From positions 62,001-126,000 of the forward strand of contig JAIPEW010000003.1 of assembly GCA_021736985.1 (NCBI GenBank): a stretch of 64,000 nucleotides of DNA, read 5' to 3'. The stretch is from Clostridiales bacterium. GTDB lineage: Bacteria > Bacillota > Desulfotomaculia > Desulfotomaculales > VENG01. The notes beneath the pieces were generated by a model, which did no database searches, had not been told where the DNA came from, and worked only from the letters and a program-made list of their open reading frames with translations. Every line of letters starts with the position of its first letter. Positions within the stretch are counted from its first letter, which is position 1. Below, one piece after another: positions 39,311 through 54,272 of this stretch. The position numbers were made by a program, and so were the translations under genes.

Positions 39311-39821
39311 GAGTTCACCTGCACTTGTGACAACTTTCTCCTTTTTTTCATCTTTTATTATTCTGATCTCCTCTCCTTTCCTTCGTATTTAAATAGATCG
39401 ACCTACTTACTTCAATAAAAAGCGCTTGGAATGATTTTCTAACTTAAATCGGGCATTGCAAAAACCTGGCTGATTCGTATGTACCGGGTACCTTCGCCCG
39501 GTGCAAAAACAAATAATAATTGAAACTCTTCATTTTACCCAACTCTTTCATAAAATTCGAAACTATAATCAAAAAACTCCAATTAATTTAGCTATTTGGC
39601 ACGTGCAGACCTATAATTGTGCACATTCGCCTGCTTATGGGGACATGTTAAACATGCATATCACCACCTCTAAATAAATTATAGTTAATTATCTTTAATT
39701 GGAAATACGTTTAAAGGATATGGCAATGACAACTTACCGGCATGAATTGTGCCAAAAAAAGATTTATTTTGTCGGGGGAGTGTAATATAATTACATATAA
39801 TCTCGTAAAGTGGTGGTCTGT
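39311..39821. other. Divergent intergenic region
   Basis: About 500 bases between the membrane-protein operon (-) and the HTH regulator (+). It holds a small hairpin ACCGGG/CCCGGT near 39483-39501 and several near-palindromes, but no gene. Promoters for both directions should be here; I cannot pick -35/-10 pairs with confidence. Confidence 0.5.
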
Positions 39822-41369
39822 TTGAAGTCTTTTAATGAGAAGCTGGACCTGCTGATGAACTTAACAAATACAACCAATAGTATCCTTGCCCGGGCCATTT
39901 CCGTTGATCCTTCTTTCGTTAGCCGCCTGAGGCGGGGTCTGCGCAGTCCCGCAAAAAATGAAAACTACATAAAGCCCATGTCCGACTATATCGCCAGGAA
40001 CTGCACCTCGGCATATCAAAGGGCGGCGCTGAAAGAGGCCATGAAAAGACCGGATGAAGGGCTGCCGTATGATGCGGAGGCATTGAGTGAACTCATCTTA
40101 GAGTGGTTTTCCAGGGAAAGCGGGGAAAGAAAATCAGCGGTGGAAAGCTTTATGAAAGGCCTGTCTAATTTTCAATTTCGAAAAATGCCGGGAAGTGGGG
40201 CCATAGATACAGGGAGTGCCCCGAAAAGCACGCCGGTGAACGGAAGTGTCTTTTACGGCGTAGAGGGAAAACGGTCTGCGGTTATTCATTTTTTGTCCCT
40301 GGTGCTAGGGAAGGAAAGCCCTACAACGCTGCTTTTATTTAGTGATGAAAACATGGAATGGCTCACGGAAAACCGGGAATTTACGGACAAATGGGCATCA
40401 CTATTGTTCCAGGTGCTTATGAAGGGCAATAAAATAAAAATTATCCATACGGTAAGCCGCAGCCTTGATGAAATACTTGCGGCAATTGAAAACTGGCTTC
40501 CAATGTATATGACCGGAAATATAGAGCCGTATTATTACCCCAAAACCCGGGACGGCATATTCAGGCGGACATTATTCATTGCCGCGGGCACTGCCGCGGT
40601 AACTTCTAGCTCTGTAGGCGAGGACGGCGCAAAAAGTGCCGCCAATGTCTTTTTTACCGACAGCCATGCAATTAAGGCGCTTACGGAAGAATATAAAGGG
40701 TATTTCTTCCTCTGCCACCCCCTTATGCGCATATTCACCTCTAAAAACACCATGGATTACCTCGGCGTTTTGTCTGAATTTGAGGAAGAAGAGGGGCACA
40801 GGGTGTTAAAAACAGATATGCTTTCAGCAGTAACAATGCCCCTGGAGGTTGCTGAAAGCATATATTCACGCATGGAGAGCAAACAAAAGGAGGATATTTT
40901 AGCCTATCACCGGAGGAGGGTAAATGCCTTCGAAAATAGCTTGAAAAAATACAATTTTGCGGAGATTGTCAAAACCCCAGATGTAGATACAGTACAATGC
41001 GGCAAAGCAGCGCCGAATTCTATGCATGTGTTAACTGCCGGTAAAGTGTTTTACACAGTAGGCGAGTATAGGAGACACCTGGAAAACATTATCAGGCTTT
41101 TAAAGAGCTATGATAAATACAGCCTGCACCTGGTAACAAACATCGAGCTGGAAGGATGTATGCTTTACTGTAAAGAGGATGTGGGCGTGTTCATTGAAAA
41201 GCAGTCTCTGCCGCCTGTTACGTTTGCCCTGAATGAAAGAAATATGAGCTCTGCCTTTTGGGATTACTTGCGACTGATGCTGAATAAACTGTCAAAAGAC
41301 AGCTTGCAAAGAAAACATACCATAAACACTCTTTATTCAATTAACCAGGCGCTAAAAGCTTTAGAATAA
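39822..41369 (+). CDS. Large transcriptional regulator with N-terminal XRE-like HTH
   Basis: The first 70 residues form a lambda-repressor-like helix-turn-helix: FNEKLDLLMNLTNTTNSILA, then SVDPSFVSRLRRGLRSPAKN. The remaining 450 residues are a mixed alpha/beta region without a domain I recognise, with a hydrophobic patch near 250 (TLFIAAGTAAVTSS). This architecture, about 500 residues with a short HTH, is seen in Clostridia as uncharacterised regulators. TTG 39822 is preferred as start because AAAGTGGTGG lies just upstream. It faces the membrane-protein pair divergently and may control it (inference). Confidence 0.75.
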   Translation: MKSFNEKLDLLMNLTNTTNSILARAISVDPSFVSRLRRGLRSPAKNENYIKPMSDYIARNCTSAYQRAALKEAMKRPDEGLPYDAEALSELILEWFSRESGERKSAVESFMKGLSNFQFRKMPGSGAIDTGSAPKSTPVNGSVFYGVEGKRSAVIHFLSLVLGKESPTTLLLFSDENMEWLTENREFTDKWASLLFQVLMKGNKIKIIHTVSRSLDEILAAIENWLPMYMTGNIEPYYYPKTRDGIFRRTLFIAAGTAAVTSSSVGEDGAKSAANVFFTDSHAIKALTEEYKGYFFLCHPLMRIFTSKNTMDYLGVLSEFEEEEGHRVLKTDMLSAVTMPLEVAESIYSRMESKQKEDILAYHRRRVNAFENSLKKYNFAEIVKTPDVDTVQCGKAAPNSMHVLTAGKVFYTVGEYRRHLENIIRLLKSYDKYSLHLVTNIELEGCMLYCKEDVGVFIEKQSLPPVTFALNERNMSSAFWDYLRLMLNKLSKDSLQRKHTINTLYSINQALKALE

Positions 41370-41417
41370 ACAGCTGTCGGCATAGCACTTAATGTAATAA
41401 ACAAAAGTAAATTTTAA

Positions 41418-41699
41418 AAAGCGGATATATTCTTTATAACTGATGGCCAATCACAGTTGGATACTGAATTTGTTAAACAATTTAATAATACTAAAAAACA
41501 TAAGGGCTTTATGGTATTTACTGTATTAATCAATGCTTTAAAGAGGTCAAGTACTCATGCGGTAGAACAATTCTCCAATGATATTATAATAAGCTTGGAA
41601 ATCGACCAACCCCTGAAGATACTGTTTGTTTTGGAGGCGATACAGCAGACTTTATCCCAGTCCAAACTAACAATCTTTAACAGCGACCATGGCAGATAA
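41418..41699 (+). pseudogene. Fragment of a von Willebrand factor A domain protein
   Basis: The frame has no proper start and opens after a stop codon with ADIFFITDGQSQLDTEFVKQ, then HKGFMVFTVLIN. This is the middle of a VWA domain, with ITDG corresponding to the metal-ion-adhesion region of the later part. Only about 90 residues remain, so this is the C-terminal remnant of a larger gene. Confidence 0.6.
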
Positions 41700-42293
41700 T
41701 TACGAACATCCGCATTAATCGCACCGCCAGAAGTTTATTATCAAAGTTAGCCTGGTACTTGGACTGTGGATATGCCGTTCATATGGACTTGTGGTAGGGC
41801 AATAATAAAAAGGTTTTTTATTCTTCAAGAACATATGTACCAACAAATTCACCAGCCTTTAATACTGCCCACAGGGTCCACAATCACTTGAATAATGCAA
41901 GCGTTATTCACATAACTACAGCCCCGGCAGTAATGATAAAAACATCTTCTTCACCATCATACAAATAATAACAAATCTGGAAATGCAACAAGTAGCTAAA
42001 ACCATCATTGCATACCATAATCTAGGGAAAAAGGAATAGAAGGGGTAGCTTAAATTTTAAAAATTCAAGTTTATGAAGTTTAGGAAAGAATTGGTGCAGT
42101 CTTTTCCAATCTTGTTTTGTAGGCAAGTTTCGGTAGTTTTAAATGCATTATGCCACCTTCCATTCAAAGATATGGTCTTCTGATTTAAAGGGTTCTGTTG
42201 CAGTTGTAGTTGCATTGATTTTAACGAAGAACGTGAGCATTGTAATAGCCACCTAAGTAAGGTTTCATAAAAATACACATATTATGACTTTAA
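41700..42293. other. Degenerate region without an intact gene
   Basis: Several short frames with internal stops look protein-like (for example TNLEMQQVAKTIIAYHNLGK near 41960-42030), suggesting decayed coding sequence after the VWA fragment. A 73-codon - strand frame at 42057-42278 lacks a ribosome site and is not supported. Confidence 0.5.
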
Positions 42294-45200
42294 TTATCTA
42301 TCTCTAGCATCAACTTCGGCCGATACCTCATCTGGAATTTTACCAAGGAAGTAATCCTCTATATATTCCCAAAATGTTTTATTATCGACTTCATTTGTAA
42401 AAAGATAGGTTAACATTGAAACAGACATTTTGTGCCTTTTGTAAACATTGTCCAAAATATAATTCTTATACTTATGGGGCGATTGCAAGCTACGGTCTAT
42501 CTGCAATCTAGAATTGATACGGAGAAAAATCTCCGGATTATCTCCACCTTGGACATTGTATAGAACCAAACCTAATGCTTCCAGAATTCCTAATAAAATA
42601 AATACTTTTTCAATCTTTTCTCGATTTCTCTTAGGTAAGAAAATTTCATAGGAAGTTTGAGTTCCTTTTTCTATACAATTAGTATGATTTAATAACTGTC
42701 GTGTTTCATTACGAATCCAATCGATGAACCCAGCATATCCACTATTTTGAAAGCAATACCTATTTCGCCCTTCATTATATGTGATAAACCGATTATAAAA
42801 ATTAGAGTATTTGCGCATAATTCTATCGTAATTTCTTGCACTATATATTAAAATAGATGCTAGATTTTCAATATAATATTTATCACCACCAATTAATTTC
42901 TGCAGGTTTTCTGCAAAATCTTCAATTGCAAAATACCTTCGGTCTTTGGCATATGATCCAATAATAGTCGCTATATGATCTAATTTTTGATGAAGTTCTG
43001 CAAAGAAATTGTTTTGATCTAATAACTTAAGCGAAACTTGAATTTGTAAAACAGATAGAAGATTGTCAAGGAAATCAAGCCCTAGCTCTTCATCATTGGA
43101 ATGAAATTTAAACTTAAATTGTGGAAATGATAAACTGCGAAAATGTTCTTCCCAAATCCCTTTCATGTCACAAGCATAGATATTTCCAAAAAATTCTTTA
43201 CCACCCTGCTTAGCCATTCTAAAATATTTTTCAAATTTGGGCCATTTCTTAAAATTAAAGTCTTCTTTAATCATAAAATATTCCTTAGCAAAAACACTTC
43301 TTGGTCTTGCAATGATAGGTGAATAGCCGAGTTTAGCCTTAAAATCTTTTTCTATGATAAGTAGTGCGGTTTTTAGCTTATTATCAATATCATCGGTTGA
43401 TTCAATATTCCCTTGCTGAAATATATACCGAAATTCCTCCCCATTAATCAATAAATTACGCATATTTCGACGGTTGTTTTTTGCTTCGAGCAGCTGAAGT
43501 ATTTTATGCATTACTTGAATCAACTGATTCTTACGTAATGTAGAAATTCCATGTAATCTGTTAACATGAATAAAATCTTTTGGTAAAAAATCAAAATAAG
43601 AATAACCCTGTTCTAGTGCTCTTGCGGCGCGCCCTACTTCCTGAACATAATCACACACATTACCTGTTGGCGCAAAATGATACACGTTGGTGATGTCCGG
43701 AATATCAATTCCCATCCCAAAAGCTTTTGTTGCAAGCATAATTAGCGATTCCCCATTTTTAAAACGAAGGTAATTTGCATTTTTAGGTTCCTTTTCCAAG
43801 GATCCATAATATAGAGAAAGATGTTTTATTAAGATGTCACTGCCGTACATGATGACAAATTCTTTAAATTGAAGAATCAGGCTAATTGTTGGAAAGTAAA
43901 CCAATGTTTTTTGTTTTTGTTTAAGGAATTTTTCTAACCGAAAAGTTAAAATTTTAAACTTTTCTTCCAAATACTCATTGAAACGGTCTTTTGTTTGCTC
44001 TTTTTTCTTTAAACGCACTTCGATATCATCACGTTTAACATAACCAAAATAACTGATAGGGTTGATTAAGTTAAGGCTATCTCTTGTCTCTGCATACATG
44101 TCTTCTAGCCCACCATATATTGCTGTGGCAGTAAAAGTTGCAATTGGAAAATGTATTTCATTACGAAGTCTTTGTAGATAATTTCCTAAGTACCAATAAT
44201 CTGAACGGAAGGCTTTCCCCCATGTGGTAACAATGTGAGCTTCATCTATAACGAAAAGTCCTACTTTGCGCTCTCCTATTAATTCTCTAATATCAGCACG
44301 ACTTAATAACGTTTCCGGTGAAATATACAATATGGAGATTTCACCATTTTTGATTTGCTCCATTATATCCATCTTTTGGACAGGTGTAATTTGGGAATTA
44401 ATTGTGGCAGACATATCTACATTCCGATTAACTAACCCTTGTACCTGATCTGTCATAAGACCGATCAAAGGAGAGATAACAATTGTCATAAGATTATATT
44501 TTTCAGCTAAATAAATGGCAGGAATTTGAAACATGAGGGATTTGCCCGCACCGGTGGGTGAAGTCAAGAAAATATCTTTATAAGTTTCCCCAGCATTAGC
44601 CAATTCGGCTTGTTCAACAATGTTGCTGATAATAAGACTTTGCGGTATCTCTATCGTTTCTTTTTTAAAATCAGGATCATGAATATCTTTATACATACGT
44701 AGATTACGAAAACTCTTAAATCCCCAATAGTTGTTTAACAGCCTCAAATATTGCTCTTCATTTACTTCACATGTTTCAGTTATCTTTGTAACAAGAATAA
44801 AATTAAATTTTCTAAACAGATTTTGGAGAATCAATAATCGTTCTCGGTACCTGTAAGGGAAGTTATCTATATCACCAGTATATGAAATTCGTATTTCTTT
44901 TTCTGAAAATTTTTCTGAGAGCAATTTACCCGTTAATTTGAGCAGTTCATCCTCTTCTTCAGAGAGCTCAAGGATAGCGTTATTAAAACCTGATACTTTT
45001 TGTTCTTGAAGTTGAAATGAGGGAATTGGATAGAGTCCCGCAACTTCTTCGATGTCGTCTGTGTAAACTATATAACACTCTGACCCTATAAATTTTAAGT
45101 CTCCGTAATACTTTCGGAATACTTCATATACAGGATCTTCTTCAGACTCAATATCAACAACTTCTTCGTCAAAATATGTTTCTTTAAGTCGGTGGCTTTC

Positions 45201-45584
45201 TGGGATTTCATAGATACATGGGAAGGTTTTGTGAAATATGTTATTTTCCAGGATAGTAGTAGTGAAATAAAGTTTTAAAATGTCTTCACCTAGAATTAGA
45301 TATTCCTCAAAGGTACACCAGAATATATTATCAACCTTTAATCGATCTATTCTTTGAAAAAATTCGGGAAGTAAAGTAGCTTTTGAATTATCTAGTTCTA
45401 TTAGATTCGTGTTTAATGATATATAAAGTAGTTTTTCAAAAGTAATGTTTTCGTAAAAGCTCAGTGTAAATCCTTTAAAAACAATTAGTATTGGCCTATC
45501 ATTTATAGTAATGTTGTCTAAATGGTCTTTAATATGTTTGTGAACCGTCTTGTCCACAGAGTATTGCACTTTAGATCCCTCCAT
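42294..45584 (-). CDS. RecQ-like DEAH-box helicase with long unknown N- and C-terminal regions
   Basis: The 1096-residue protein has a superfamily 2 helicase core from about 335 to 690. Walker A is SPTGAGKSLMFQIPAIYL near 345, followed by ISPLIGLMTDQVQGL, the DEAH box near 448, TATA, and motif VI VGRAARALEQG near 655; the pattern is that of RecQ. The first 320 residues and last 400 match nothing I recognise, and the RQC and HRDC domains of true RecQ are not visible. It starts four bases after a sigma-70-type gene, so they form one operon. Its job is unknown; a defence or DNA-processing role is an inference. The region is strongly AT-rich compared with the flanking core genes. Confidence 0.9.
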   Translation of the reverse strand: MEGSKVQYSVDKTVHKHIKDHLDNITINDRPILIVFKGFTLSFYENITFEKLLYISLNTNLIELDNSKATLLPEFFQRIDRLKVDNIFWCTFEEYLILGEDILKLYFTTTILENNIFHKTFPCIYEIPESHRLKETYFDEEVVDIESEEDPVYEVFRKYYGDLKFIGSECYIVYTDDIEEVAGLYPIPSFQLQEQKVSGFNNAILELSEEEDELLKLTGKLLSEKFSEKEIRISYTGDIDNFPYRYRERLLILQNLFRKFNFILVTKITETCEVNEEQYLRLLNNYWGFKSFRNLRMYKDIHDPDFKKETIEIPQSLIISNIVEQAELANAGETYKDIFLTSPTGAGKSLMFQIPAIYLAEKYNLMTIVISPLIGLMTDQVQGLVNRNVDMSATINSQITPVQKMDIMEQIKNGEISILYISPETLLSRADIRELIGERKVGLFVIDEAHIVTTWGKAFRSDYWYLGNYLQRLRNEIHFPIATFTATAIYGGLEDMYAETRDSLNLINPISYFGYVKRDDIEVRLKKKEQTKDRFNEYLEEKFKILTFRLEKFLKQKQKTLVYFPTISLILQFKEFVIMYGSDILIKHLSLYYGSLEKEPKNANYLRFKNGESLIMLATKAFGMGIDIPDITNVYHFAPTGNVCDYVQEVGRAARALEQGYSYFDFLPKDFIHVNRLHGISTLRKNQLIQVMHKILQLLEAKNNRRNMRNLLINGEEFRYIFQQGNIESTDDIDNKLKTALLIIEKDFKAKLGYSPIIARPRSVFAKEYFMIKEDFNFKKWPKFEKYFRMAKQGGKEFFGNIYACDMKGIWEEHFRSLSFPQFKFKFHSNDEELGLDFLDNLLSVLQIQVSLKLLDQNNFFAELHQKLDHIATIIGSYAKDRRYFAIEDFAENLQKLIGGDKYYIENLASILIYSARNYDRIMRKYSNFYNRFITYNEGRNRYCFQNSGYAGFIDWIRNETRQLLNHTNCIEKGTQTSYEIFLPKRNREKIEKVFILLGILEALGLVLYNVQGGDNPEIFLRINSRLQIDRSLQSPHKYKNYILDNVYKRHKMSVSMLTYLFTNEVDNKTFWEYIEDYFLGKIPDEVSAEVDARDR

Positions 45585-45588
45585 ATTT

Positions 45589-46683
45589 CTATAATTCAGG
45601 TAAATTAAAGTCTTCGATATTTTTTTCCAAACTTGCTTTAAGTTTTTTCAGTGCCCTAGCTTCTAATTGCCTTATTCTCTCTCGGGTCAATCCATACTGC
45701 TCACCAATCTGTTCAAGAGTTTTGGGAATATTATTCAAAAAACCGAAACGTTCCATTATAATTTTTTGGTCTCGTGATTTTAATTTTTTTATCATTAACG
45801 TGCGTATCCTTGATAGAACGTCACTTTGCTCTACAAGTAACAAAGGGTCATTAAAATTGCTATGATACCCCTCTACAAGACGTCGCGAGGATGTTAAAGA
45901 CAAAAAATCAATAAGTTCACTATCTTGTTCTTCTGTTGATATTGGTTGGTCAATAGAAGTTATACCTAATAACTGATGTTCAATTAGTTTAGCACTATCG
46001 TATTTATCTAATGAAATGTCTAGTTGATTACATATTTCCTTGATGTCGGGATTTTGTCCATTCAAGAGGTAAGAAAGTTCTGCTCGTTTTATTTTCATTA
46101 TGGATTCAAACATATGAACAGGTATGCGAATAGTAGTACCTGTATCTATAATAGCTCTTAAAATTTGTTGGCGTATCCACCATACCGCGTACGTTGAGAA
46201 CTGGATATCCTTGTTAATGTCAAATTTTTTAACAGCTTTTATTAGTCCAATGACACCTTCTGAAACAATATCATCATATGTAAGCTGATGATTTATGTAA
46301 TTTTTATATTGTACTGCCAATTTATGAACCAACTTTAGATTTTCGGTAACCAATCGGTCAAAAGCAACTTTTGAGTTTTTTCCTGTATGGAAATTTTGTA
46401 ATAATAAAGTGTTCTCAGCATAAGACTCTCTCTTAACAGTTCGTCGGGGAATCCAATCCATGTTAACAATATCTTCCAGGTCAAGATCATCATCAATATT
46501 GGACGGGATATAAATTTTTTGGTAGCCCTTCTCTAATAAATATGAGCGGACGTGCTCCTCCTCAATCTTTCTTCCTATAACTTTTTCTAGATAATTTTTG
46601 GCATCTTCTAAACTTATGAAAGTTTTGTCGGGGAACCTTTGCTCAAAATCACGAAGTTTATATATTTTTTCTAGAGATTTCAA
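45589..46683 (-). CDS. Sigma-70 family RNA polymerase sigma factor with unusual N-terminus
   Basis: This 364-residue sigma factor has a full region 2 over about 105-205 (RLVTENLKLVHKLAVQYKNY, then DDIVSEGVIGLIKAVKKFD and FSTYAVWWIRQQILRAI), a region 3, and region 4 near 300-355 (KTLEQIGEQYGLTRERIRQL). Regions 2.3-2.4 are of the RpoD/SigB-like group 1-2 type, so it may read near-consensus promoters. The first 95 residues resemble no sigma region 1 I know. It is the first gene of an operon whose second gene is a RecQ-like helicase. Such a sigma factor in an accessory region, tied to a helicase, is unusual. Confidence 0.93.
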   Translation of the reverse strand: MKSLEKIYKLRDFEQRFPDKTFISLEDAKNYLEKVIGRKIEEEHVRSYLLEKGYQKIYIPSNIDDDLDLEDIVNMDWIPRRTVKRESYAENTLLLQNFHTGKNSKVAFDRLVTENLKLVHKLAVQYKNYINHQLTYDDIVSEGVIGLIKAVKKFDINKDIQFSTYAVWWIRQQILRAIIDTGTTIRIPVHMFESIMKIKRAELSYLLNGQNPDIKEICNQLDISLDKYDSAKLIEHQLLGITSIDQPISTEEQDSELIDFLSLTSSRRLVEGYHSNFNDPLLLVEQSDVLSRIRTLMIKKLKSRDQKIIMERFGFLNNIPKTLEQIGEQYGLTRERIRQLEARALKKLKASLEKNIEDFNLPEL

Positions 46684-46986
46684 GCTGTCTCCCCCTTTCT
46701 AGTATATTTAATTTGCTAAAATATTAATTGATTATAAATGAGTTGTTAATCTTTGTAAGTTAAGCTTTCTCCAAATTATCGTAAATTCCTCCAATTGCTG
46801 CCTAAATCATCAAGTACTATGTAAATTCTCTGCGTTTTTCCAACTTAAAATTATGTAGAATAGAGATGGTGGAGATATTTTGATAACGTCTAGGGTTGGT
46901 AGCTACCTAATCAATATAAGTTTGCGACATTTCCAAATCAAGGATACAATAAAATAAATAACTTCCTTATAAAGGAGATGAGATAG
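46684..46986. other. Intergenic region upstream of the sigma-helicase operon
   Basis: AT-rich spacer of 303 bases between the sigma gene (-) and a small + strand gene. The promoter of the sigma-helicase operon must lie here. I see no clear consensus -35/-10 pair or palindrome. Confidence 0.5.
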
Positions 46987-52027: not shown

Positions 52028-52407
52028 CTAGGCACCTATAGGCACTCACGGCATGCAGCCGACTTTCGCACACAGAGGACTTGGTTTCTTAAGAACTATT
52101 CTTATTTTTCATTTATATTATCAAAGTTATGCCTATTAGTCAAATTAAATTTATATTATGATTGTTATATTAATGTTGTAAAAATATAATTGAGCATTAG
52201 TAGAAATATAGTAGTGTTATTAGAGCCCCCTTGGCTGACATATAATAACAGATTTTTTTCACTACAAAAGAGGTCATATTTGCTATCCGGAAAAGGTAAA
52301 ATCACCAGACATTGTAGCTAAAAACCAATTAGAAACAGCACTTGTCTTGTCTTGGGAAGAACAGGTGCTGTTTCATTAATTTCGCCAGCACTAAAGGAGA
52401 TGACACC
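52028..52407. other. Intergenic region before the serine recombinase
   Basis: GAAACAGCAC and GTGCTGTTTC at 52332-52374 form a 10-bp terminator-like stem followed by ATT. A 46-codon frame without start (VKSPDIVAKNQLETALVLSW) ends in this hairpin and may be the tail of a lost gene. Nothing else is supported. Confidence 0.5.
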
Positions 52408-53941
52408 ATGAATGTAGTTATATATGCGCGTTATTCTTCTGATACCCAGCGTGAAGAATCAATAACTGCTCAAATCCGGGCTTGTACAGATTACGCTGCA
52501 CAAAAAGGTTATAACGTAGTAAAGGTATATACTGATGAAGCCAGGTCAGCTATGACTGATAACCGACCCAGGTTTATGCAGATGATACAGGATATAAAAC
52601 ACAACTTTGTAAAAGCTGATGTAGTACTTGTTCACAAGCTGGACAGGTTCGCCCGAAACCGGTACGATAGTGCATTTTACAGGCGGGAGCTGCGCAAGGC
52701 CAATGTAAAACTTGAATCTGTCCTGGAGCACCTGGACGACAGTCCGGAATCCGTTCTCCTGGAATCACTTATTGAAGGTATGGCCGAATATTATTCCAAA
52801 AACCTCGCCCGGGAAGTAAATAAAGGGATGCGTGAAACAGCTCTGCAGGCAAAACACTGCGGCGGCCGCCCACCTCTTGGTTATGATGTGGATAAAGATA
52901 AAAAATATATCACAAACGAGGAAGAGACCCAGGCCGTAAGGACTATTTTTAATATGTACGCGGAGGACCATGGATATAAAAATATAATGGACACCCTTAA
53001 TAACCAGGGGTATAAAACTAAAATGGGCCGCCCTTTCAGCAAAAATGGTCTGCATGAGATCCTGCGCAATAAAAAATATATTGGCATTTATACATTTAAC
53101 CGGTCTGCCAGCAAATCACCCGACGGCACCCGGAATAGTCACAGGAACAAAGAAAATGATGAGATAATCGAACTCCCGGATGCATGCCAGCGATTATACC
53201 CACAGAAATTTTTTGGAAGGTGCAAGAAAAAATGGACAGTAATAAAAGAGAACACACCGGCGGCAGGTACAAAAGCAAAGTGGTGTATCTTCTTTCGTGC
53301 CTTATTTACTGCGGTGAATGCGACATGAGAATGATTGGAACTTCTTCCACTTATAAGACCAGGGTATCCAAAGAATATAAGAAAAGGTATTATTATGAGT
53401 GCAACAATGCTAAAAGAACCAAACAATGTAGCAATGAAAAGATACAAAAACAAGCCGCGGAAGATTATGTCATTGAGATGCTGGAGTCAGAAGTATTAAA
53501 CGAAAATACAATTCCAATCTTAGCCAAAAAACTGCATGAACAATATAAGCAGGATAAAACTAACTCTGCCAGTGAAGGAGAGCATTTAAAAAAGAGATAG
53601 AAAAGCTGGAGAAACAAATTAACAACATTATGGAAGCAATAACAGTAGGGGATGGGGTTATCCATGCCCTAACAAACCAGCTCAAAAACCTGGAAAATAA
53701 AAAAGCCATCATGGATAGTAGGTACCATGAATGGCGCATTAAACAAGAACAGGATTTAATTTCAATAGATGACATCCAAGAATATCTTAACAAATACTAT
53801 GAATAGCTCCAAAGTAAAGAGCCGGAAAAATGCAAACAAGTTATTGAAAAGTTCGTGGATAAAGTAAAAATAAAAACAGACACTATTGAAGTATTTTTCA
53901 AAGTGTCTGTAGTTTCAACTGGTGGAGGCGGGGGGAGTTGA
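52408..53941 (+). pseudogene. Large serine recombinase, two frameshifts and one amber stop
   Basis: ATG 52408 starts a resolvase domain with the catalytic Ser in NVVIYARYSSDTQREES, followed by LVHKLDRFARNRYDS, a recombinase domain (GGRPPLGYDVD), a zinc-ribbon region (CLIYCGECDMRM, then YYYECNNAKRTKQCS) and a coiled coil. The frame shifts near 53185 and again near 53585, and a TAG interrupts it at 53804-53806. The same frame then continues to TGA 53939-53941, ending VSVVSTGGGGGS. Those last codons lie inside the 3' end of ssrA on the other strand. Such enzymes integrate and excise islands. This copy is dead as it stands. Confidence 0.9.
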
Positions 53942-54272
53942 ACCCACCGTCCGAAGGAAGAGCCACAGGAGTCTCTCCGAGCGCAGGTTATGATTTAGAT
54001 TTCGCTCCTTTGGCGCCCACAACCAGGCTCCTCAGGAGCTATCCCGTTAGAGTCCCTTCAGGCTTACGAGAGTCAGCCTGAAAGCAAGCCCGCTAGTTTG
54101 ACACCCTGATCCCACCACGCAGGCTGAGATGGGCAGGATGGGCTACTGTCTAGGCAGCAGCCATTAAAGGTTCATCTTTGGCAAATGTGATTGCCCCACC
54201 GTTTTACGGGCTGATGGAATACCGGCTCGCTACTCCTGCCACAACTTCCCCCGTCGAAACCACGTCGCCCCC
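53920..54272 (-). ncRNA. ssrA: Transfer-messenger RNA (tmRNA)
   Basis: The 5' end GGGGGCGACGTGGTTTCGAC at 54272 and the 3' end with GGTTCAAC loop, CCGCC and a genome-encoded CCA at 53920 define the full 353-nt RNA. It rescues stalled ribosomes with SmpB. The tag reading frame at 54182-54150 gives AKDEPLMAAA then TAG; the resume codon could also lie a few codons earlier. The gene directly follows smpB (one base between). The acceptor stem and T arm overlap the end of the serine recombinase remnant, which marks the site as an island attachment point. Confidence 0.96.

Follow-up and report, generated by a model that had tools for sequence, protein, structure and literature searches.

A SigA-like sigma factor gene paired with a RecQ-like helicase gene: a probable two-gene defence unit of Bacillota

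A stretch of 64,000 nucleotides from a Clostridiales bacterium (the window) carries, side by side on one strand, the genes of a sigma-70 family factor and of a large RecQ-like helicase. The locus raises the question of whether these genes form a unit and, if so, what a transcription factor would do beside a helicase. To our knowledge, sigma factors are seldom regarded as parts of immune systems. From comparison of sequences, we conclude that the two genes, which travel together and usually sit among anti-phage genes, probably form a defence unit that has no name so far and supplies a transcription factor of its own.

Both reading frames of a preliminary description, made from the letters of the window, were recovered at the positions given there; they lie on the minus strand, with four bases between the sigma stop codon and the helicase ATG. 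The features of the locus are as follows.

46731..46759, minus strand: promoter-like site CTTACA-17-TATAAT upstream of the sigma gene, 10 of 12 consensus matches
46691..46698, minus strand: ribosome-binding site AAAGGGGG of the sigma gene, a good site before the TTG
45589..46683, minus strand: sigma-70 family factor, SigA-like, 364 aa, TTG start, intact
46507..46680, minus strand: sigma N-terminal helical domain (residues 2-59), predicted H-E-H-H-E, then an acidic linker (family profile and AlphaFold2)
46141..46362, minus strand: sigma region 2 (core binding, -10 reading, melting; FSTYAVWWIRQ), Pfam PF04542
45634..45837, minus strand: sigma region 4 with the -35 helix TRERIRQ, as in SigA, Pfam PF04545
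42294..45584, minus strand: RecQ-like helicase, 1096 aa, intact, full-length match to PADLOC C3a193
44631..45584, minus strand: helicase N-terminal region (residues 1-318), predicted alpha/beta, matching no known family
43515..44612, minus strand: RecQ-type motor core (residues 325-690) with GAGKS, DEAH, TTWGKAFRSDYWYLG and QEVGRAAR
42297..43553, minus strand: helicase C-terminal region (from residue 678), without RQC or HRDC, matching no known family

Sites of the CTTACA-17-TATAAT type are common by chance here (40 observed versus 30 expected). A GTG at helicase residue 6 has a better ribosome site (GGAGGG) than the ATG, and the true helicase start may therefore lie there.

Pairing and joint inheritance

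The survey covered 799 sampled genomes in two groups, the window's own phylum and the class of a Paenibacillus genome, with plasmids searched additionally. The sigma gene adjoins the helicase gene in 18 of 22 independently sampled carriers (6 of 9 in the own phylum and 12 of 13 in the Paenibacillus-class sample), and plasmids of Lactiplantibacillus (L. plantarum) carry the pair as a stand-alone unit. The check proposed in the preliminary description, adjacency in unrelated genomes, thus gave a positive answer. The four carriers without an adjacent sigma gene are three distant relatives and one truncated case. Distant helicase relatives that lack the sigma factor (L020, L022, L023 and L042) indicate that it is not essential to every member. 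Strong sigma matches lie beside the helicase in eight cases out of nine, and one genome, G773, has a sigma factor of this group without the helicase.

The pair occurs in three arrangements (operon, divergent and reversed), so the pairing is independent of any single operon, and in some operon forms the genes overlap or nearly touch. Protein distances among sigma factors correlate with those among helicases (r=0.86, versus 0.46 for the best of 5000 permutations). The two trees broadly agree, and the window falls in the same clade in both. Since the pair is conserved in other genomes, it goes beyond chance, and sigma factor and helicase probably constitute one mobile two-gene module of defence islands in many Bacillota. 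A third conserved gene was considered and rejected: only Paenibacillaceae-type loci have the ORF3-hsdMSR block behind the pair, and neither the window nor the rest of its genome contains ORF3.

The sigma factor and the helicase

Regions 2, 3 and 4 of the window sigma carry the promoter-contact residues of SigA, in keeping with a SigA-type factor of group 1 or 2, with Sigma70_r2 and Sigma70_r4 scoring above their Pfam cut-offs and region 3 below. It does not qualify as a group 1 primary sigma factor, scoring 194 bits against the RpoD equivalog (cut-off 354), and the region 1.2 motif DPVRMYLKEIG is absent from nearly all of its relatives. The -35-reading helix TRERIRQ is SigA's own in 20 of 21 sigma relatives. 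Core-binding and promoter-reading residues of SigA are retained, and a distinct promoter class was considered and rejected, the DNA-contact residues being mostly those of SigA.

The N-terminus, at first called unfamiliar, proved not to be novel in kind; its likeliest identity is a region 1.1 that has diverged. This assignment follows from the full-length family profile, with which residues 14-370 of Bacillus subtilis SigA, region 1.1 included, align end to end, and from a fold match to SigA. In the AlphaFold2 model the N-terminal domain has a pLDDT of about 83-88. An isolated profile-profile comparison of the N-terminus with region 1.1 gave a weak match.

In the helicase, DEAD and Helicase_C exceed their Pfam cut-offs, and the motor motifs are intact. 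Pfam searches returned no RQC, RecQ zinc-binding or HRDC match, which agrees with the architecture first described, and the large flanks (about 320 and 420 residues) yielded nothing convincing in Pfam, PHROGs or PDB sequence families. Flank profiles searched against the PDB likewise returned nothing, and in fold searches with the whole helicase model the RecQ core accounted for most of the matches. The sequence shows no recognizable nuclease domain.

Genomic setting and competing explanations

The pair lies in an AT-rich stretch (GC about 0.33 versus 0.43-0.45 on both sides) with a partial IS21 transposase (136 bits versus a cut-off of 160) and a serine recombinase split across two frames. This much of the setting drawn in the preliminary description was borne out; as for the decayed genes that it had also mentioned, those in 41370-42293 match no genes of related loci. 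An attachment site at the 3′ end of the tmRNA was rejected, with no useful direct repeat within the window. A phage origin was rejected on zero matches in phage records or viral contigs, where the viral-contig scan detects close relatives only.

Elsewhere, neighbours of the pair include type I, II and III restriction, BREX, Pbe, Jet and McrBC-like genes. Defence genes, known or candidate, are present in most of the neighbourhoods, a point that the preliminary description had proposed to check; this is a raw observation and not a measured enrichment over random genes. Pairs also reside on plasmids, and beside recombinases and insertion sequences. Paenibacillaceae-type loci have one locus-specific palindrome within the sigma promoter, which in one locus (L032) recurs before restriction genes and there points to shared control. 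Separately, AGTATTGAAATACT is a candidate target of the ORF3 protein. The earlier proposal of a defence module is thus well supported by context, short of proof, and its alternative, island maintenance, keeps a minor probability. Its companion idea, that the sigma factor reprograms transcription, is weaker, as retention of SigA-type promoter-reading residues gives no indication of a distinct regulon.

Conserved pairing, joint inheritance, mostly defence-rich surroundings and the lack of any other conserved partner are established for this pair. Our preferred reading, held tentatively at a probability of about 0.45, is that the helicase is the effector and the sigma factor the module's dedicated SigA-like transcription factor. 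The helicase would act as an ATP-driven DNA translocase whose flanks may choose or remodel the substrate, either foreign or replicating DNA. The sigma factor would join core RNA polymerase and keep the module transcribed from SigA-like promoters, in some hosts perhaps together with neighbouring restriction genes. Most plausibly it would serve as a safeguard during infection by phages that disable SigA or put another factor in its place. Against this reading, the SigA-like DNA contacts leave the need for a second SigA unexplained.

Alternatively, the sigma factor might be a docking subunit and not a gene regulator. A sigma-helicase complex would deliver the helicase to RNA polymerase at work on invader DNA, and the helicase could there strip or stall transcription or open the DNA for nucleases. 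We regard this as unlikely, although strict pairing in any gene order, joint inheritance, operons in which the two genes overlap or almost meet and a sigma factor without distinct promoter specificity all fit it; tree agreement can arise from co-inheritance alone, and helicase relatives without the sigma factor exist. Also rather unlikely is that the sigma factor mimics SigA, from which it has diverged in regions 1.1 and 1.2, and serves the defence module as an understudy while a phage shuts off SigA-dependent host transcription. In that role it would either sustain transcription of the helicase effector and of restriction genes nearby or guide the helicase to RNA polymerase.

RecQ-like helicases have general roles in replication and recombination, and the pair might serve its carrier mobile elements in maintenance, replication restart or transfer, its proximity to defence genes reflecting shared residence in islands and plasmids. 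The plasmid-borne pairs and those beside recombinases and insertion sequences accord with such service. We nevertheless think it improbable, for on chromosomes the pair directly adjoins defence operons of many kinds that are unrelated to one another, the L032 promoter element is common to the pair and restriction genes, and the loci surveyed have no mobility gene that is conserved along with the pair.

The sole catalogue listing of the full-length helicase, PADLOC C3a193 (PDLC01089, 'poss. alt. Cas3'; residues 86-1083, 507 bits), belongs to the same protein family and would make it an alternative Cas3 for CRISPR systems, with the sigma factor incidental. This is very improbable: the constant partner is the sigma factor, which the catalogue entry does not name, the scanned neighbours include no conspicuous Cas protein, and the fetched loci contain no convincing CRISPR array, since the only match is a short repeat next to a gene for plasmid replication. 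That the genes stand together by accident in an accessory region undergoing decay, as the mobile, AT-rich setting with broken genes might suggest, is already refuted by the adjacency counts and the several arrangements and retains almost no probability.

A widespread cassette of a SigA-like sigma factor and a large RecQ-like helicase, occurring beside very different defence systems, would supply portable control or power for defence. The means by which defence genes remain expressed while phages take over RNA polymerase would become directly testable, and a helicase family listed so far only as a possible Cas3 substitute would gain a setting.

Comparison with named systems

No published description of the pair was found in an open-access library; one may exist elsewhere, as preprints and most subscription papers lie outside that scope. 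The helicase is neither a housekeeping RecQ nor, by curated cut-off, any named defence protein. Membership in RecQ, Dpd and MZA was rejected on scores below cut-off or alignments confined to the motor, and membership in PsyrTA is doubtful on a match of the motor only.

The helicase shares the motor fold and motifs of housekeeping RecQ, including the DEAH core, but lacks RQC and HRDC, has two large unique flanks and reaches 194.9 bits against an equivalog cut-off of 640.2; the other match in the genome is a separate 595-aa frame. DpdF of the 7-deazapurine system Dpd and PsyrT are RecQ-like motors of defence systems whose likeness to the helicase is limited to the motor (117.4 bits against the DpdF equivalog, cut-off 550; 163 bits with PsyrT), and no PsyrA match occurs among the scanned window neighbours.

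The sigma factor shares end-to-end profile alignment and an identical -35 helix with SigA/RpoD, from which it differs by its diverged region 1.1, the missing region 1.2 motif and RpoD scores below cut-off. Its best NCBIfam match is MzaA of MZA, a defence system with a SigA-type sigma factor, at 200.9 bits versus a cut-off of 800 and aligned only in the sigma part (profile positions 472-704 of 726). No match to MzaBCDE was seen among the scanned window neighbours, and the pair differs from MZA in that the partner protein is a helicase.

The gene pair and its island

Both genes of the pair are intact and lie on the minus strand of the window. The helicase gene begins four bases downstream of the sigma gene, as the preliminary description had stated. 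Its account of an AT-rich region containing an IS21 remnant and a recombinase is likewise confirmed. GC content is ~0.33 across the region of the pair versus 0.43-0.45 in both flanks, a partial IS21 transposase and an S24 peptidase remnant share the AT-rich region, and a large serine recombinase beside the tmRNA gene was probably the island's integrase, now broken. A DUF3800 gene matches the PADLOC model DUF3800_VII (95 bits) and may be a further defence-related gene of the island. Immediately left of the AT-rich stretch, a gene with a GC content of 0.45 encodes a protein without a match in Pfam, PADLOC or NCBIfam.

Features of the window
39810-41369, protein of 519 residues
42294-45584, minus strand, RecQ-like helicase, 1096 aa
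45589-46683, minus strand, sigma-70 factor, 364 aa
51227-52027, DUF3800 protein
52342-53600, large serine recombinase, divided between two overlapping reading frames
53920-54272, tmRNA gene

Conservation and setting of the pair

Helicase carriers number nine among 399 genomes sampled across the phylum, the window's genome included, and 13 among 400 genomes from the class of a Paenibacillus genome. An adjacent sigma gene is present in 6/9 and 12/13 carriers, respectively, the latter count taking in a genome (G713) whose helicase and sigma genes are each found at a contig end, on separate contigs. The four carriers lacking an adjacent sigma gene are three distant relatives (loci L020, L022 and L023) and a truncated helicase (L041), and further search added another distant relative that has no sigma gene (L042). 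Additional pairs occur on contigs of Paenibacillus and Ureibacillus and on plasmids of Exiguobacterium, Lactiplantibacillus and Enterococcus; the co-occurrence proposed as a check in the preliminary description therefore extends to other genomes. Three arrangements are seen: sigma then helicase with short gaps or overlaps, divergent genes mostly 49-83 bp apart, and helicase then sigma (L021). Sigma matches at E<=1e-48 in the Bacilli-type sample have the helicase alongside in eight of nine genomes (exception G773).

Pairwise distances among the helicases track those among the sigma factors (r=0.86; the highest of 5000 permutations gave 0.46), and the window groups with the same Paenibacillaceae-type loci in both trees. 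The two genes are therefore inherited as a unit, which does not imply binding. The pair has no other partner on the L. plantarum plasmids, where it is flanked by an IS982 transposase and a toxin gene.

Known or candidate defence genes adjoin most pairs, and in our judgement such genes are enriched around them, a point that the preliminary description had proposed to check. Type I hsdMSR genes are found at L003, L004, L030, L032 and an E. faecium plasmid (L026), while L005 ends at a contig end. Other neighbours are BREX BrxC and PglX (L018, with L019 arranged alike), PbeA and PbeC (L017), a DUF2357/PDDEXK gene pair (L016), PDC-M26A (L033), type III restriction-modification (L035), a C5-methylase and Vsr (L034), two methylases (L039), Jet genes (L006), PDC-M62 (L036), and PDC-M33C with a methylase-specificity fusion (L040). 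Sigma-less helicase relatives also lie near defence genes, namely HamB (L022) and DUF499 with DUF1156 (L020, L023). A search of the loci for CRISPR arrays gave none that was convincing. In Paenibacillus soyae, a gene closely upstream of the pair (L004:4341-8645) encodes a protein of 1434 residues that contains DUF4145 and matches EH-signature (ZorC-like) in part.

Sigma and helicase proteins

In Pfam, sigma regions 2 and 4 pass the cut-off while region 3 falls short of it; NCBIfam scores are 194 bits against the RpoD C-terminal model (cut-off 354) and 201 bits against MzaA (cut-off 800). The N-terminus, called unfamiliar in the preliminary description, is most likely a diverged region 1.1, because the family profile aligns with residues 14-370 of the 371 of B. 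subtilis SigA (E=1e-93), region 1.1 included, and full-length SigA is the best match of the predicted sigma model. An acidic linker accompanies this region, the region 1.2 motif DPVRMYLKEIG is absent from sigma, the N-terminus varies considerably among relatives, and comparing it in isolation gives weak support for region 1.1. Region 4.2 TRERIRQ is kept in 20 of 21 sigma sequences (one has V for I), and region 2 FSTYA..WI.Q is present in most. Given these promoter-reading residues, sigma should bind core polymerase and start transcription at SigA-like promoters, which speaks against a promoter class of its own. An orphan sigma of the same group (L064:8180-9022, 280 aa) lacks the N-terminal domain, has no helicase nearby and carries a -35 helix altered to TPSRIRQ.

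The helicase contains both motor halves (Pfam DEAD and Helicase_C) and scores 195 bits against the RecQ equivalog (NCBIfam cut-off 640). In PADLOC-DB, C3a193 ('poss. alt. Cas3') covers it nearly full length (507 bits), whereas matches to the defence helicases DpdF and PsyrT are confined to the motor. The AlphaFold2 model is confident (mean pLDDT 83.6, pTM 0.81), with the RecQ core, which includes a family-specific DEAHIVTTWGKxFRxDYWYLG stretch, in the middle; this core dominates fold-search matches of the whole model. Flanks 1-318 and 678-1096 are kept across the family; PHROG and PDB sequence families gave no match to them, and Pfam none that was convincing. The helicase sequence shows no nuclease domain. 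Relatives without sigma include a same-family helicase broken by an IS30 element on a Levilactobacillus brevis plasmid (L028:7709-12072) and a diverged 843-residue protein in Phocaeicola (Bacteroidota; L027:11884-14415).

Proposed regulation and function, and known systems

In L003, L004, L005, L030 and L032, the sigma promoter contains the palindrome RRTATTNNAATAYY at or beside the presumed -35 element, and the pair is followed by ORF3, upstream of hsdMSR. The stricter form RRTATTGNAATAYY is found at only a few sites in each genome of 4-7 Mb; six further sites in these genomes were inspected, and five of them are inside predicted genes. ORF3 resembles HsdM, carries one fused target-recognition domain and lacks the NPPF and SAM-binding motifs.

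ORF3 genes
L003:4665-6263
L004:13250-14839
L005:13319-14908
L030:11730-13334
L032:6402-7985
L059:8250-9950

A second palindrome copy precedes ORF3 in L032. ORF3-hsdMSR is not linked to the pair in G713, and there a copy is placed immediately before ORF3. The promoter presumed to drive ORF3 contains RRTATTNNAATAYY. We infer that ORF3 is a methyltransferase that has lost catalytic activity and a putative operator-binding repressor, coupling the pair to type I restriction-modification in these hosts. The window has neither ORF3 nor the palindrome, though the tree groups it with ORF3 loci; at L018 there are two copies of a looser, AT-rich form and no ORF3. Methylase-specificity fusions with altered motif IV at L040:4762-6414 and L060:2121-3704 have their own, different upstream palindromes (GGTTAAAGTTAACC and TAGTATATACATACTA, respectively), as if operator and recognition domain had changed together.

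The pair is conserved, self-contained and jointly inherited, in mostly defence-rich settings. The helicase would be the effector and sigma a SigA-like transcription factor dedicated to the pair that may serve as insurance while a phage takes over. The main rival readings are that sigma docks the helicase on RNA polymerase, or that the pair helps to maintain mobile elements. No published account of the pair was found in an open-access library, and one may exist elsewhere, for example among preprints. Since PADLOC-DB already lists the helicase family and the MZA defence system contains sigma factors (PMC9523054), we do not call the pair categorically new.
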